Below, in pieces: positions 3,381-25,810 of a DNA stretch of 63,350 nt. Each line of letters starts with the position of its first letter. Position 1 is the stretch's first letter. This stretch comes from Candidatus Zhuqueibacterota bacterium (GTDB taxonomy: Bacteria; Zhuqueibacterota; Zhuqueibacteria; Oceanimicrobiales; Oceanimicrobiaceae), in contig JAJDAG010000040.1 of NCBI GenBank assembly GCA_029262005.1, forward strand, positions 1-63,350, written 5' to 3'. Made by a program: the position numbers and the translations under genes. Below the pieces are notes generated by a model. The model was not told the origin of the DNA and searched no databases. It was given only the letters and a program-made list of their open reading frames with translations.

Positions 3381-4042
3381 TCAGGCAAGTCATTATAGGA
3401 TTTACAACCGAAGGCTCAACAGATGTTCGATTTTTGAAAAGTGTTATTCAGCGAACTTTTGAAGATGTAGCTTTTGAGTGCAGTGGGCAGGTTGAGGTTT
3501 TGCCTGTTCAGTACATTGAAAAACAAAACGGCAACTTTATCGAAGTGGTAAAACACTATGCTCAAAAGGCCGAAAAGCTGGGCGTGATGGTGCTTTGTGT
3601 CCATGCTGACGCAGATGAACCGACAGATGCAAAGGCGTTTAACGACAAACTTAATCCGGCATTTGATGCTATAAAAACTCAGCAGGGGGAAGACGCCTGT
3701 AAAAATCTGGTGGCGACTGTACCAGTGCAAATGACCGAAGCATGGATGTTATCAGATAAAGATCTGCTAAAAGTAGAAATTGGCACAACCAAGAATGATG
3801 CAGAGCTTGGACTTCATAGATTGCCCGAACTTTACACTAACCCAAAAGAGGCCATAGAATCTGCTATCAGAATAGCTCGTCAAGATTTAACAAAACGCCG
3901 CCGTCATAAACTAACAATAGCTGAGCTATATTTAACGATAGGACAAAAAGTTTCCTTGAACAAATTAGAGAATTTACATTCTTACCAAAAATTCAAAGAA
4001 GCGGTGCGAATTGCTTTCCAAGAGTTGGGCTATTTGCACTAA
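3377..4042 (+). CDS. TOPRIM/DUF4276-like effector partner
   Basis: A 221-residue protein whose pattern fits the TOPRIM-like DUF4276/RloB group. It has an N-terminal strand followed by TTEGSTDVRFL (acidic residue Glu12), then a strand ending in HADAD (Asp78 and Asp80, a DxD pair), then MTEAWMLSD, which corresponds to the conserved AEAW-L-D segment of the family. Glu plus DxD are the metal-binding residues of TOPRIM nucleases, so catalysis is possible. It is translationally coupled to the ATPase by an ATGA overlap. By analogy with PARIS or RloAB, the ATPase would hold this protein inactive and release it when a phage trigger is sensed. That role is inference. Confidence 0.72.
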   Translation: MIRQVIIGFTTEGSTDVRFLKSVIQRTFEDVAFECSGQVEVLPVQYIEKQNGNFIEVVKHYAQKAEKLGVMVLCVHADADEPTDAKAFNDKLNPAFDAIKTQQGEDACKNLVATVPVQMTEAWMLSDKDLLKVEIGTTKNDAELGLHRLPELYTNPKEAIESAIRIARQDLTKRRRHKLTIAELYLTIGQKVSLNKLENLHSYQKFKEAVRIAFQELGYLH

Positions 4043-4070
4043 GCGGAAAGGAGACACGGCCGGACTAATC

Positions 4071-4091
4071 TGGGATGGCATATACACCAAA
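4071..4091 (+). repeat. Right copy of direct repeat flanking ATPase/TOPRIM module
   Basis: This copy begins 29 bp after the stop of the TOPRIM-like gene and matches 1811-1830 apart from one A-to-G change and one extra T. The distance between copies is about 2.26 kb. No terminal inverted repeats, integrase or transposase lie between them. Confidence 0.55.
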
Positions 4092-4122
4092 TCAATAGTT
4101 TCTGGCTCCCAAAAACAGAAAA

Positions 4123-4143
4123 GGCTGTCACTTCCTGACAGCC
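4123..4143 (+). terminator. Hairpin after the accessory block (weak terminator)
   Basis: GGCTGTCA (4123-4130) pairs perfectly with TGACAGCC (4136-4143) across a 5-nt loop. It is preceded by an A-rich stretch but not followed by a T-run, so it is a weak terminator candidate for the ATPase/TOPRIM transcript. Confidence 0.3.
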
Positions 4144-4202
4144 CGGTTAGTTTGGCTTACATAGTATTTGTATTGACTGACTTAACATAGAAAGGGCTAT
4201 AA

Positions 4203-4238
4203 ACTAAAAAAGTCCAGCTTTTGCTGGACTTTTTTAGT
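4203..4238 (-). terminator. Rho-independent terminator of tRNA-Asn (bidirectional)
   Basis: A perfect 16-bp stem (4203-4218 with 4223-4238) around a TTTT loop, with a GC core GTCCAGC/GCTGGAC flanked by A-runs and T-runs on either side. It starts directly behind the encoded CCA end of the minus-strand tRNA gene and would also stop plus-strand transcripts from the accessory block. Confidence 0.85.
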
Positions 4239-4314
4239 TGGCTCCTCGGGTAGGACTTGAACCTACAACCTAGTGGTTAACAGCCACCCGCACTGCCGAT
4301 TGAGCTACCGAGGA
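4239..4314 (-). tRNA. tRNA-Asn (anticodon GTT)
   Basis: The reverse strand folds as a standard 76-nt tRNA. The acceptor stem TCCTCGG pairs with CCGAGGA, the discriminator base is G and the CCA end is encoded. The D-arm has AGCTCA and the anticodon loop reads CTGTTAA, giving GTT for asparagine. The T-arm contains GGTTCAAGTCC. A promoter lies just upstream and a strong terminator directly downstream. tRNA 3' ends are common integration sites, and the accessory block at 346-4042 lies on its 3' side; I did not find a second copy of the tRNA 3' end in this window. Confidence 0.95.
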
Positions 4315-20376: not shown

Positions 20377-21261
20377 ATGTTAAAGCTCGGCATGGATCTT
20401 GGCGGCACTAAAATAGAAGGCGTCGTTCTCGATGAAAATCACAACCAGGTGTTCAGGCAGCGTATCCCCACTGAACAGGCGCTCGGATATGAGCACATCC
20501 TTGAAAATATCGCTAAACTTTATGGACGAATGATTCGTGAGACCGGCAAAAGTGAACATACTCTTGGCATTGGCACACCAGGTGCGATTTCCCCGCGTAC
20601 AGGCCTCATGCGCAATTCAAATACGCTTTGTTTAAACGAAATGCCTCTGAAAGAAGATCTTGAGGAACGCCTCAAGCGTAATTTATGTATTCAGAATGAT
20701 GCCAACTGTTTTGCCATGGCAGAAGCCTTGGCAGGCGCCGGTGTTGGCAAAGACCTTGTGTTTGGCGTCATTATGGGAACCGGGTGTGGTGGCGGCATCA
20801 TTTACCGGGGAGAGGTTTTGACGGGCATGCACGCGATTGCCGGCGAATGGGGACACACCAGCATCGATCCGACCGGTCCGGAATGTTATTGTGGCGCGCG
20901 CGGTTGTATTGAGACATTCATCAGCGGCGGCGGGCTTGAAAATTGGTATGAGCGAGAGTTTGGCGCACGCCTGTCAGCACACAACATTGTCCTCGGTTAT
21001 CAGCATGGTGATGCTGCCTGTAATTCGCTCGTACCCAAATTTTTTCATTGTTTCGGCCGCGCCCTCGCTAATCTGATCAGCCTTCTTGACCCCGATGTTG
21101 TCGTGCTTGGCGGGGGTCTGTCAAATTTTGACGAACTTTACACTATCGGTGCAAATGAAGTCAGGAAACGTGTGTTCAGCGACTTTTGTGATACTCCCAT
21201 TGTAAAAAATCAACTCGGTGATTCAGCCGGCGTCATCGGCGCAGCTTTAATAGGTGTCTGA
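20377..21261 (+). CDS. ROK family sugar kinase (fructokinase/glucokinase-like)
   Basis: A 294-residue kinase that phosphorylates a hexose with ATP. It has the N-terminal phosphate loop MDLGGTKIEG (about 5-14), the RNSNTLCLNEMPL segment typical of the Mak/fructokinase branch, and catalytic Asp in QNDANCFAMAEA. The ROK zinc motif GHTSIDPTGPECYCGARGC is followed by IETFISG, then ADP-binding VVVLGGGLSN. The conserved elements are all present. The exact sugar (fructose, mannose or glucose) is not readable. It stands alone, divergent from trmH. Confidence 0.9.
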   Translation: MLKLGMDLGGTKIEGVVLDENHNQVFRQRIPTEQALGYEHILENIAKLYGRMIRETGKSEHTLGIGTPGAISPRTGLMRNSNTLCLNEMPLKEDLEERLKRNLCIQNDANCFAMAEALAGAGVGKDLVFGVIMGTGCGGGIIYRGEVLTGMHAIAGEWGHTSIDPTGPECYCGARGCIETFISGGGLENWYEREFGARLSAHNIVLGYQHGDAACNSLVPKFFHCFGRALANLISLLDPDVVVLGGGLSNFDELYTIGANEVRKRVFSDFCDTPIVKNQLGDSAGVIGAALIGV

Positions 21262-21330
21262 TAATTCAGGCGCAATCAAACCAGAAATTATAGTAGCCGT
21301 TAGTTTGACCCGGCCGTTGTGCCCCGCTCC

Positions 21331-21828
21331 TCAATCTGTTGCAATACGTGACTTTAAGTAAGATTTAAGCATATCCAAAGCGGAAACTACCCCGACAATT
21401 TCTTCCCCATTAAATACGAACAGGCGGTGAATATGGGCGGACACTAAGATCCGGGCGATTTCCTTCAAACTCGTTGCTTCATCTACATGGTAAACAAAGG
21501 GTGTCATGATATCCTTGGCAGTCATGGTTTCACTTTCTTCCAGGTGAAAGCCGGTCAATTCTTCGGAATCAAATTGCGGAGACAATGTTCGCAGTATGTT
21601 GTTTGCTGCAATTTTATCTGATATGATGTGTTCACGTCGTGGCTCGTTGCGCACAATATCGTTTAAAGTTACCACGCCGATGGGTACACCCTGTTCATTT
21701 ACCACGGGCGCTCCAGAAATCATTCTCCCGGTCAAAAGATCTGATATTTCTTCAATTGATGCGTTTTCCTGGATAGTTACGACTGGGGTTTGCATGATAT
21801 CTCTGGCTGAAAGTCCAACACTAAACAT
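21331..21828 (-). CDS. Tandem CBS-domain protein
   Basis: A 165-residue protein consisting of two CBS motifs: about 10-65 (ARDIMQTPVVTIQENASIEE, then GAPVVNEQGVPIGVVTLNDI) and about 105-160 (AKDIMTPFVYHVDEATSLKE, then HRLFVFNGEEIVGVVSALDM). Paired CBS domains bind adenosine nucleotides and usually regulate a partner. No catalytic domain is attached. GGAGAAA precedes the ATG. The neighbouring genes give no obvious partner. Confidence 0.9.
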   Translation of the reverse strand: MFSVGLSARDIMQTPVVTIQENASIEEISDLLTGRMISGAPVVNEQGVPIGVVTLNDIVRNEPRREHIISDKIAANNILRTLSPQFDSEELTGFHLEESETMTAKDIMTPFVYHVDEATSLKEIARILVSAHIHRLFVFNGEEIVGVVSALDMLKSYLKSRIATD

Positions 21829-22097
21829 AGCATTTTCTCCAATTTATGTTTGAGAGAGACGGGGTGGCTTGGTGAATTGTATTGTGTTTTTCAGTTGAAC
21901 CCAGTGATACTTGTGGATTCGACAATTGTAGACAGCTTAGTAGATTGGCAGGAAATAGCATTGCCCACATAAGGTGGTCTCATTTTGGCAGAAGCAATGT
22001 CCGGTAATGCCGGTGTTGTAAACTACAGAAATGTAATTTCGAATTCAAGGAAAAATGTGCCGTTTTTGCAGAATCGAAAAAATAAGGAGTCATGTCT

Positions 22098-22796
22098 TCA
22101 GAGAGCGTTCAGAGCTTTATGCAACTTCTTCATAAAAATGGGACGCGGCACTTCAACTGCGCCAAAACTAGTTAGCAATGGCGTCAACATCTGTATGTCC
22201 ATCCAGGTTAAGCCCAGGTTTTTCAAGTGGGAAGCTGCATTTAGGAGGGTAAACTTGGAGGCATTGTTCTCCAGGTAGAACATGCTTTCGCCCGCAAAAT
22301 ATTTTCCGATGAGCACGCCATACATGCCGCCAACGAGTTTTCCACCGGCATTGTAGGTTTCGAAGCAATGCGCGAAGCCGGCATTGTGAAAATTGATGTA
22401 GGCCGATATCATCGAAGAAGTGATCCAGGTACCACTTTGGTTTTTTCGGTTTTGATTGTTCGCGCAAGCGGTAATGACTTGTTGAAAGTTGTTATTTACC
22501 TTAAAGGTGAATAAGTCCTTTTTTAGTGCACGAACCAATCGTTTCGGAATATGCAGTGAATCAAATTCGAGGATTGCGCGGCGTGGTGGCGCGAACCAGA
22601 GAATCGGCTCATTTTCGCTGGAGGGCCAGGGGAAGATGCCGCTACGGTAGGCTAGCTCAAGTGATGCAACCTCAAGATCACCGCCAAAGGCAAGCATGCC
22701 GCTTTCCGGATCCGCTGTTTCAACAGATGGGAATTCAACAATCACGCTCATGCACCGTTTCGATTGGACTGACTGCTTGTACTGCTCAAAATACAT
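22098..22796 (-). CDS. aat: Leucyl/phenylalanyl-tRNA--protein transferase
   Basis: A 232-residue enzyme of the N-end rule pathway that moves Leu or Phe from tRNA to proteins with N-terminal Arg or Lys. The family core is clear: GMLAFGGDLEVASLELAYRS, GIFPWPSSENEPILWFAPPRRAIL, later GTWITSSMISAY and GGMYGVLIGKYFAGESMF. A second in-frame ATG at 22751 (MSVIVEFPSV) is a possible alternative start. The plus-strand candidate RNA at 23001-23115 lies just upstream of the gene. Confidence 0.92.
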   Translation of the reverse strand: MYFEQYKQSVQSKRCMSVIVEFPSVETADPESGMLAFGGDLEVASLELAYRSGIFPWPSSENEPILWFAPPRRAILEFDSLHIPKRLVRALKKDLFTFKVNNNFQQVITACANNQNRKNQSGTWITSSMISAYINFHNAGFAHCFETYNAGGKLVGGMYGVLIGKYFAGESMFYLENNASKFTLLNAASHLKNLGLTWMDIQMLTPLLTSFGAVEVPRPIFMKKLHKALNAL

Positions 22797-23000
22797 GCTC
22801 TTAAAAAAAGAATCAACAGCAAATTATGTTGGTGGTTAAAAGTTAAAGCTGGTAGAAATGATGACCGATAGGTTTTAGGAACGGGACAAAACGTTGCTAT
22901 GTTTTTCTGGAAACTGAGCAGTCGAAGCCAGTTTCAACTGCTGAGAATGCCGTACTTTTCAAAGACGTCACGATATTGGTTGTGACGCACAGTATTTTGT

Positions 23001-23115
23001 CGGGCACTTGAACCTCAAGAGAGACTGAAGCGTTGAGCGGTGTCGGGTCTGAAGTCGAATCAGTCTACAACATGTGTTGGAAGCGGAAGCGGCGAGGTTT
23101 GAGTGCCCGTTTTTT
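23001..23115 (+). ncRNA. Candidate structured RNA ending in a U-run
   Basis: The 16 nt at 23001-23016 pair completely with 23094-23109 when read as plus-strand RNA, using two adjacent G-U wobbles. On the minus strand these would be A-C mismatches, so the structure favours plus-strand transcription. Six Ts follow directly (23110-23115). Inside, AGACTGA (23022-23028) pairs with TCAGTCT (23060-23066). Upstream, GAAACTG/CAGTTTC (22910-22916/22929-22935) and AGCAGT/ACTGCT (22917-22922/22937-22942) interleave, so the RNA may start earlier. It fills a 326-bp gap between aat and queD. I found no match to 6S, SRP or tmRNA consensus. Confidence 0.4.
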
Positions 23116-23122
23116 GCCGTTC

Positions 23123-23449
23123 CTACAATTCCGCCCATTTACCTTCACCTTCCCACACACGGACTGTAAACGCAAAGCTCAGTAGTTCTTGCAGTCGGCT
23201 GTGCAATAGCTCACAAATATTTTCCACTGAAGGATAATCCATGAAATCGTTCAACGATTTGTGATCATAGTCCTGCAGCATGTCTTCAATCGTGCGTTTC
23301 ATGTCGCCAAAATCGATGACCATGCCATTTTTTATTTCGCCTTCAATAACCACTTCTATTTTATATGTGTGGCCATGCAGTTGTCCGCATTTTGGGTGCT
23401 CCGGCAGATAGTGGGCGCAATCAATGTAGTGTGTTGTGCCAAGTTTCAT
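23123..23449 (-). CDS. queD: 6-carboxy-5,6,7,8-tetrahydropterin synthase (QueD)
   Basis: A 108-residue enzyme of the 6-pyruvoyl-tetrahydropterin synthase fold, on the path from GTP to queuosine. Zinc-binding His are in CAHYLPEHP and CGQLHGHTY, the latter also giving the catalytic Cys. The DYDHKSLND and PSVENICELL segments and the substrate-binding Glu in VRVWEGEGK are all present. It lies 6 bp downstream of the yajQ stop, so the two are probably one transcript. It ends with TAG. Confidence 0.92.
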   Translation of the reverse strand: MKLGTTHYIDCAHYLPEHPKCGQLHGHTYKIEVVIEGEIKNGMVIDFGDMKRTIEDMLQDYDHKSLNDFMDYPSVENICELLHSRLQELLSFAFTVRVWEGEGKWAEL

Positions 23450-23455
23450 TCGTTG

Positions 23456-23938
23456 TCAATCTCGATAGTTGATAAATTGCAGAGGAATATCGAGCTTTGA
23501 TTCCTTCAGCAGTGCAATTACTTCTTGTAAATCATCTCTTTTTTTTCCAGTAACCCTGACTTTTTCTCCCTGGATGGCTGCTTGTACTTTTAGCTTGGCG
23601 ACTTTAATGATTTTCACAATTTTTTTCGCCATTTCCTTCTCTACACCCTCAAGAACGGTAAGTTGTTGCCGTGAACCCTTCCCGTGGATTTCCAGCTTTC
23701 CCAACTCAAGTGCTTTTAAATCAATTTTACGTTTTGCCATTTTTGTGTAAAGAATATCAAGCATCTGCTAAATCTGAAATTCGCTGTCTCCGTGCAGCAT
23801 TATTTCGTTGCCGTTGTGTTCAAAGCGCGCGCCGGTTCCTTTAAAATCGAACCGTGTGGAAACTTCGCGACTGGCCTGATCTACGGAGTTGGTCACTTCC
23901 TGCATGTCAACTTCTGAAACGATATCGAATGATGGCAT
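23456..23938 (-). pseudogene. yajQ: yajQ with in-frame amber codon at position 57
   Basis: The frame from ATG 23938 (preceded by AAAGGAGA) reads [15 protein letters not shown], the exact family start, and continues through HGDSEFQI. It then meets TAG at 23770-23768 and resumes in the same frame as QMLDILYTKMAKRKIDLK through to NYRD and TGA. In E. coli YajQ the matching segment is SDFQVNQLLDIL, so a single residue is replaced by the amber codon. The total of 160 sense codons matches the usual length of about 163. YajQ/UPF0234 proteins bind nucleotides (c-di-GMP in some bacteria). Possibilities are a nonsense mutation, a sequencing error, suppression, or reinitiation at ATG 23764. Confidence 0.9.
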
Positions 23939-24058
23939 GGGGATTCTCCTTTAGTATTTTATTCAATATTTTTCTATTTCCCTCAGGACAAAATATGGAT
24001 AAACAAGACTTAAGTCAAGGGAGAGGGCACTGAATTCTGATATTGAGCGGCTCTGTGT

Positions 24059-25810
24059 TTAAATTCTCGCTTGATACGTGTATAATTGATAATACCTTCC
24101 TTTTTTCTCAATCAGTTCATCGTGGGTGCCGCGCTCTGCAATTTTACCAGCCTCGATTACCAGAATTTGCGTCGCCTGACGAATCGTGCTCAACCGGTGG
24201 GCAATAACAAAAGTGGTGCGGCCTTTCATTAACTGGGTCAGGCTCTCCTGAATAAACAACTCACTTTCTGTGTCCAGATTTGAGGTTGCTTCGTCTAAAA
24301 TAAGGATACGTGGATCGGCCAGTAACGCCCGCGCAATTGCTACTCGCTGACGTTGGCCTCCGGACAGTTTAACACCACGCTCACCAATCAATGTGTCCAG
24401 GCCGTCGTCAAAACGATCAGTGAATTCTTTCACATGCGCAGCTTTGACAGCCGCGAGCACGTCATTTTCGCCGGCGTCAGGCCGCGCGAACAAAATGTTT
24501 TCACGAATGGTACCTTCGTAGAGAAAATCATCTTGAAGCACAACCCCGAGACGTGAACGGTAAGAATCTAGTTTTACGCAGGCAAGGTCATGGCCGTCGA
24601 TGCTGACTGTGCCCTCTTTGGGTTCAAGAAAAGAGGCGGCCAAACCGGCAATAGTCGTTTTGCCCGAGCCTGAACTGCCAACCAGTGCCGTGACGGTACC
24701 AACCGGTGCATCGAAGCTGATGTTACTAAGAACATCGTGGCCTTCCTCGTAAGAGAAAGAAATATTGCTGAAAGTCACATTCCCTTTCAGCTCACTCAGT
24801 TCAATGGTTCGATTCGGCTCACTGTTCTCCTGGGCCTGACTTAGAATTTCCTCCGTACGGTCCAGGCCGGCAAACGCTTCGGTAATTTGGCTGCCGACAT
24901 TGCTCATTTGTAGAATAGGGGCAACCAGAAAGCCAAGATAAAGCGTAAAGGCGAAGAAGTCACCCAGTGTCATATTATTATCTAAAATGAGAGTGCCGCC
25001 AATGCCCATAATGCCGACACTGGCCAGGCCGAGCAGCAGGGTTGCCGAGCTTGTAACCAGGCTTGTTGTGGTTAGTGATGCTTTTACATTCTGAAAGATA
25101 CGGTTAACGCCTCTCTCGAAGACCTTGATTTCCTGCCGCTCTGCGTTGAAGCCTTTGATGACGCGAATACCGCCAAGAGATTCAGTCAAACGGCCGGTCA
25201 CATCCGCGTTTATTTTTCCGCGTTCTCTGAATATAGGGCGAATTTTACCAAATGCTTTTAACGAAATAAAACCGAAGACGACCATCGGAGCCAATGTATA
25301 CAACGTCATCCAGGCATTGATTTTCACCAAAATGACAAGAGAGGCGATGGATGTCAAAATGCCGCCGAACAATTGAACCAACCCGGTTCCTACAAGATTA
25401 CGTACACCTTCAACATCGCTCATGATGCGGGATACAAGCTCACCGGATTTGGTGTTATCGAAAAAGCGCAGCGGCAAATATATGATGTGCTTCTGCACCT
25501 GCGAACGTAACTCCGAAATGAGATGCTGTGCTTCCACACTCAAAAGACGGGTGAGGAAAAATGAGGTAGAAGATTGCACAAACAGAGCCCCGGTGACTGC
25601 CAGAAGAATAAGCTTAAGTAGATCCCGGTCGCCGTGGACGATGACATTGTCGATTAAATACTTGCTGGCACCGGGCAGAACCAGACTGGATGCGCGATTT
25701 ATTATGATTAGAACGAGGCCAAGAAGAAGCAGCTTTCGTCGCGGCCAAATAATATTCTTAAAAGCGTAGCGGACTGTTCTCAGTGACGTTTTCTTTTTGT
25801 TAGCGGACAT
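24059..25810 (-). CDS. ABC exporter, MsbA-like (fused permease-ATPase)
   Basis: A 583-residue half-transporter. Residues about 20-320 form the six-helix exporter domain. The ATPase follows with Walker A GSSGSGKTT, Q-loop GVVLQDDFLYEGTI, signature LSGGQRQRVAIARAL, Walker B ILILDEATSNLD and H-loop IAHRLST. The overall pattern fits lipid A flippase MsbA and related lipid or drug exporters, which act as homodimers in the inner membrane. ATG 25810 is preferred; a TTG three codons earlier is possible. It stands between yajQ and typA as its own unit. Substrate assignment is inference. Confidence 0.9.
   Translation of the reverse strand: MSANKKKTSLRTVRYAFKNIIWPRRKLLLLGLVLIIINRASSLVLPGASKYLIDNVIVHGDRDLLKLILLAVTGALFVQSSTSFFLTRLLSVEAQHLISELRSQVQKHIIYLPLRFFDNTKSGELVSRIMSDVEGVRNLVGTGLVQLFGGILTSIASLVILVKINAWMTLYTLAPMVVFGFISLKAFGKIRPIFRERGKINADVTGRLTESLGGIRVIKGFNAERQEIKVFERGVNRIFQNVKASLTTTSLVTSSATLLLGLASVGIMGIGGTLILDNNMTLGDFFAFTLYLGFLVAPILQMSNVGSQITEAFAGLDRTEEILSQAQENSEPNRTIELSELKGNVTFSNISFSYEEGHDVLSNISFDAPVGTVTALVGSSGSGKTTIAGLAASFLEPKEGTVSIDGHDLACVKLDSYRSRLGVVLQDDFLYEGTIRENILFARPDAGENDVLAAVKAAHVKEFTDRFDDGLDTLIGERGVKLSGGQRQRVAIARALLADPRILILDEATSNLDTESELFIQESLTQLMKGRTTFVIAHRLSTIRQATQILVIEAGKIAERGTHDELIEKKGRYYQLYTYQARI

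Follow-up and report, generated by a model that had tools for sequence, protein, structure and literature searches.

A solitary hairpin-rich unit between queD and aat in a Candidatus Zhuqueibacterota genome, possibly what remains of a small mobile insertion

A hairpin-rich unit of 250 bp (22876-23125) lies in the gap that separates two ordinary genes, queD and aat, in a Candidatus Zhuqueibacterota bacterium. The unit is real, solitary, and an orphan, and two explanations of it, a small RNA and the remains of a very small mobile element, stay close rivals. The reading preferred here, with a probability of roughly 0.4, takes the unit to be the remnant of a small inverted-repeat insertion that was mobile but non-autonomous. 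Such an insertion would have landed at a TA beside the stop codon of queD and later drifted, and the unit would consist of an outer repeat nested over several internal palindromes. Either as DNA or as RNA, it would take up a branched (T-shaped) fold. If the plus strand were transcribed, part of the transcripts would end at a run of six T residues (T6), and if transcription of queD read through on the minus strand, the unit would be the structured 3' end of the queD mRNA. The window (the whole stretch of 63,350 nt that was analyzed) is one contig, C139, within a 5.77-Mb assembly of 205 contigs.

The original prediction placed a structured RNA on the plus strand with both neighboring genes on the other strand, and both genes do lie on the minus strand. 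The aat gene (22098-22796) encodes leucyl/phenylalanyl-tRNA--protein transferase and scores 168.2 bits against TIGR00667 (cut-off 143.55). The queD gene (23123-23449) encodes a full-length 6-carboxytetrahydropterin synthase of 108 amino acids, with a TIGR03367 score of 89.0 bits, slightly below the cut-off of 89.25. Relatives of QueD were found at 78 loci, and the nearest two (80% and 77% identity) are named candidate division KSB1. Truncation of queD by the 250-bp unit was rejected because the proteins of three family relatives end at the same residue, with the same C-terminal WAEL (the stop codon is TAG in two of them and TGA in one). Judged from the sequences, the queD-aat order is not conserved in 26 other aat loci within the flanks covered (about 1.5 kb in most), where tblastn found no queD; these loci also contained no syntenic empty site. 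Inspection by eye of the 300 bases 3' of queD in 18 loci, the present one included, found no look-alike of the unit. Two features of the neighborhood are recorded here in their own right. An ATG at 22751 (MSVIVEF...) may be an alternative to the aat start at 22796, on mixed evidence: the loci L006 and L007 (genomes G001 and G007) have stops shortly 5' of VIVEFP, which favors the alternative, and the alignments of L008 and L009 begin at residues 8 and 7, which opposes it. On the far side of queD, a yajQ-like minus-strand frame at 23456-23938 contains one in-frame TAG at codon 57 (QI*QML, stop at 23768-23770) that may reflect a decayed gene, a genuine nonsense mutation, or an error in the sequence.

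The outer inverted repeat that bounds the unit was absent from the original prediction. Its left arm (TAGGAACGGGACAAAACG, 22876-22893, plus strand) matches its right arm (23108-23125, read on the minus strand as TAGGAACGGCAAAAAACG, the first three bases of which are the queD stop codon) at 16 of 18 positions, and no shuffle of the gap, out of 500, did better than 15 of 18. The real window holds three repeats of this grade and ten whole-window shuffles held zero to two each (mean 1.0); in 63 kb, a single repeat of this kind is not unusual. TA is present at each end of the repeat, and since it is built into the repeat itself, it does not amount to an independent duplication. Nine base pairs of the repeat form a perfect helix (P1, 22876-22884/23117-23125). 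The sequence GACAAAA (22885-22891), which adjoins P1, can form seven pairs (P2) with TTTTGTC (22994-23000), which adjoins the main hairpin (P3). Because the halves of P2 adjoin P1 and P3, the three helices can come together at a single junction. The minimum-energy fold of the plus-strand RNA has P1 and P3 but not P2; the minimum-energy fold of the minus-strand RNA combines P1, the complete P2, and most of P3, and the DNA fold contains P1, P3, and six of the seven P2 pairs. Forcing all three helices together costs 10.2 kcal/mol on the plus strand and 6.9 kcal/mol on the minus strand, where the forced set has two non-standard pairs.

P3 is a bulge-free stem of 16 bp (23001-23016/23094-23109) that encloses an interior of 77 nt. 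Two of its pairs are G-U on the plus strand (A-C on the minus strand), and it is followed directly by T6 (23110-23115), which resembles a terminator on the plus strand yet lies within the right outer arm. Inside P3, a 7-bp stem (AGACTGA/TCAGTCT, 23022-23028/23060-23066) closes a predicted inner hairpin on the plus strand (23022-23066). Upstream, at 22910-22942, two stems interleave, GAAACTG (22910-22916) with CAGTTTC (22929-22935) and AGCAGT (22917-22922) with ACTGCT (22937-22942); from the sequence and the predicted folds, they could form an H-type pseudoknot or be mutually exclusive. The original prediction had described the 16-bp stem with its two G-U pairs, 77-nt interior, and six Us, as well as the internal 7-bp stem and the interleaved pair, and all of these are present in the sequence. 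A 10-bp hairpin (22917-22926/22933-22942) has a G-U pair on the minus strand (C-A on the plus strand), and a 9-bp hairpin, CGTCACGAT-ATTG-GTTGTGACG (22966-22987), present in the sequence and in predicted folds, has two G-U pairs on the plus strand. When the whole window was dinucleotide-shuffled 20 times, stems of stability equal to or greater than that of P3 (loops of up to 150) arose twice in total, neither time with at least six T among the next eight bases. By the same measure, the real window contains P3 alone on the plus strand and one other stem on the minus strand (54984-54943). The combination of the P3 stem and T6 exceeds chance.

The unit as a whole also folds better than chance, and it does so on both strands. 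For the span 22901-23120, the z-score is -2.24 on the plus strand (4 of 200 shuffles fold equally well) and -3.07 on the minus strand (1 of 200). For the full unit (22876-23125), the z-scores, somewhat flattered because the span was picked after the repeat was seen, are -4.10 as plus-strand RNA and -5.03 as minus-strand RNA (0 of 200 shuffles each) and -3.25 as plus-strand DNA (1 of 200). Six shuffles per piece, with the standard deviation pooled, were used to score 508 pieces of 250 nt covering both strands, among which the unit ranks second on the minus strand and fourth on the plus strand. The first and third ranks belong to 4001-4250, next to a minus-strand tRNA gene (4242-4314); directly adjoining that gene, at 4202-4239, is a hairpin of 17 bp with tracts of A and T (of the bidirectional-terminator type). 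The prediction of a plus-strand structured RNA is thus supported in part, since the structure exceeds chance but the excess is not specific to the plus strand: folding of both strands, which had been proposed as a check, confirmed an excess on the plus strand, yet the excess on the minus strand is larger. An excess on both strands is more in keeping with palindromes in the DNA than with an RNA made from one strand.

The strongest rival to the relic insertion is a small RNA transcribed independently from the plus strand, about 205 nt long (22910-23115), whose intrinsic terminator would be the 16-bp stem together with U6. Such an RNA would work in trans as a regulator or sponge, and its existence is possible but rather doubtful. 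The unit resembles a small RNA with an intrinsic terminator in having a GC-rich stem followed by T6 between opposite-strand genes, and the stem with its T tract is the part that exceeds chance. The strand-specific wobble pairs point the same way. Four of the five are on the plus strand (two in P3 and two in 22966-22987), which opposes the insertion reading, and one, in the hairpin 22917-22942, is on the minus strand, which counts against a plus-strand RNA; the overall bias favors the plus strand, as RNA would, though five events prove little. A promoter-like pair consisting of TTTA at 22874 (found by eye) and TATGTTTT at 22898 would place the start near 22910. The site at 22898 is a relaxed match to a Bacteroidota-like promoter (8/10, a score reached by 0.4% of window positions), and two sigma-70-like sites (8/12, a score reached by 1.0% of window positions) lie farther 5' at 22825 and 22837. 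However, over the 204 positions examined, relaxed matches with these scores are no more than chance would give, and a strict scan found no plus-strand promoter upstream of 22910.

The candidate terminator would also be atypical. A loop of 77 nt is unusual for a terminator, and a scan of 22700-23250 for terminators with loops of 3 to 8 found none on either strand. The unit is further unlike a small RNA of this kind in that its T tract is embedded in a longer repeat, and the position of T6 within the right outer arm weakens the terminator reading. The left arm, reverse-complemented, reads CGTTTTGT at the T6 site, so that four of the T6 residues follow from the repeat. A transcript terminating at T6 would exclude the right half of P1, and the outer arm beyond T6 is left unexplained by the small RNA. 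This means that T6 is a by-product of the DNA repeat or that the repeat is relevant only to a longer RNA. The former is favored because folding is equal or stronger on the minus strand and the plus-strand promoters are at chance level. In addition, the searches found no relative from which covariation could be read.

Those searches covered the organism's own genome and several overlapping sets of other genomes. The organism's own genome contains no second copy of the unit that could be found, only ten matches of 15-20 nt (E of 0.37 to 8.4). A DNA search of 146 other genomes found no convincing relative; the two short matches (24 nt in G057 and 26 nt in G138, E of 0.0014 and 0.0018 per genome) were judged to be chance by their length and E, and no wider match was seen in the sequence around them. 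A DNA search of 81 other genomes of the phylum, including the family member G004, gave the short G057 match and nothing convincing, and 387 other genomes gave no match at E up to 0.001 in a search that scored two candidates per genome and was therefore less sensitive than the other two. Covariance-model and paired-arm searches were run on 81 genomes, the organism's own among them and G004 left out. The paired-arm pattern matched its own site and none of the 80 other phylum genomes (a reversed control matched one, G027). A covariance model built on the single sequence of the main hairpin, which reaches near relatives only, scored 147.7 bits against itself and found no relative in the same 80 genomes; the next-best matches (G073, 21.6 bits, E of 0.17 per genome; G052, 21.3 bits, E of 0.66 per genome) lie inside open frames of more than 270 codons and were taken as chance. 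Plasmids gave no match to the unit, viral contigs gave no exact match to one 26-base piece, and three phage records gave one common 24-nt match with an E of 0.9. A literature search found nothing joining KSB1, small RNA, and intergenic, which says little. This patchy presence, with no convincing DNA relative in the 146, 81, or 387 genomes, supports the relic of an insertion. However, a small RNA that changes fast would be just as likely to be an orphan, and because the genome sets hold no member of the same genus, missing relatives cannot separate a young insertion from such an RNA.

The comparison systems for the insertion reading are bacterial miniature elements, namely, the MITEs of Coxiella (PMC5896051) and small mobile sequences (PMC2229807). 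The unit is like them in being short and intergenic, in having no recognized gene and a hairpin-rich interior, and in carrying terminal inverted repeats (16/18) with TA at both ends. It is unlike MITEs in being single copy in its genome and, by the paired-arm pattern, missing from the 80 other phylum genomes. With a single copy and no paired arms elsewhere, no mobile family is shown, which opposes the insertion reading. Duplication of TA is typical of IS630/Tc1-mariner elements. No partner transposon with similar paired ends was found in the organism's own genome at up to three mismatches, where the outer arm gave seven other matches on seven different contigs and no pair (a reversed control gave 14). 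The unit has the terminal repeats of a MITE and lacks the multiple copies and the partner, and for that reason it is not classed as a MITE, although its origin may have been MITE-like.

Three further readings are less probable than the relic insertion and the small RNA. One, which is unlikely, is that the unit is a structured RNA of some 250 nt, specific to this lineage, outside the described families and built on a three-way junction of P1, P2, and P3. The junction would be linker-free on its 5' side, with UUUUUUG as the linker on its 3' side. The second, which is improbable, is a minus-strand mRNA element, either a structured 3' end of the queD mRNA or the leader of a queD-aat read-through transcript, that would steady or attenuate the message. 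Both genes run on the minus strand, and the strongest folding, with P1, P2, and most of P3 in one fold, is found there. However, the sequence has no T tract after any minus-strand hairpin, most of the wobble pairs favor the plus strand, and queD was not found beside aat in the 26 other loci. Three minus-strand promoter-like sites at 8/12 in 22745-23122, which could serve aat, are roughly what chance would give and are neutral for this reading. The third, a diverged 6S RNA, retron RNA, or other Rfam family, is very improbable: 6S RNA (RF00013) has a closing stem around a long structured interior, and the unit is similar in outline in its size, closing stem, and multi-branched fold, but nothing in 21000-25000 matched Rfam at E up to 5, the sole match at gathering score in the whole window is a tRNA, the genome's 6S match (47.4 bits, slightly above the cut-off of 46.4) lies elsewhere at C45:33769-33949, and the genome's four reverse transcriptase matches are all on other contigs (C129, C110, C94, and C146), and the main-hairpin model matches nothing in those four loci. 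The matches on C110 and C94 (loci L173 and L174) lie in open frames of 324 and 319 amino acids, a size known among retron reverse transcriptases.

Should the unit prove to be a genuine RNA, a little-studied, uncultured lineage would have gained an orphan structured RNA. Should it instead be a relic insertion, its main value would be as a caution: a hairpin with a T tract behind it can be just one arm of a larger palindrome in the DNA.
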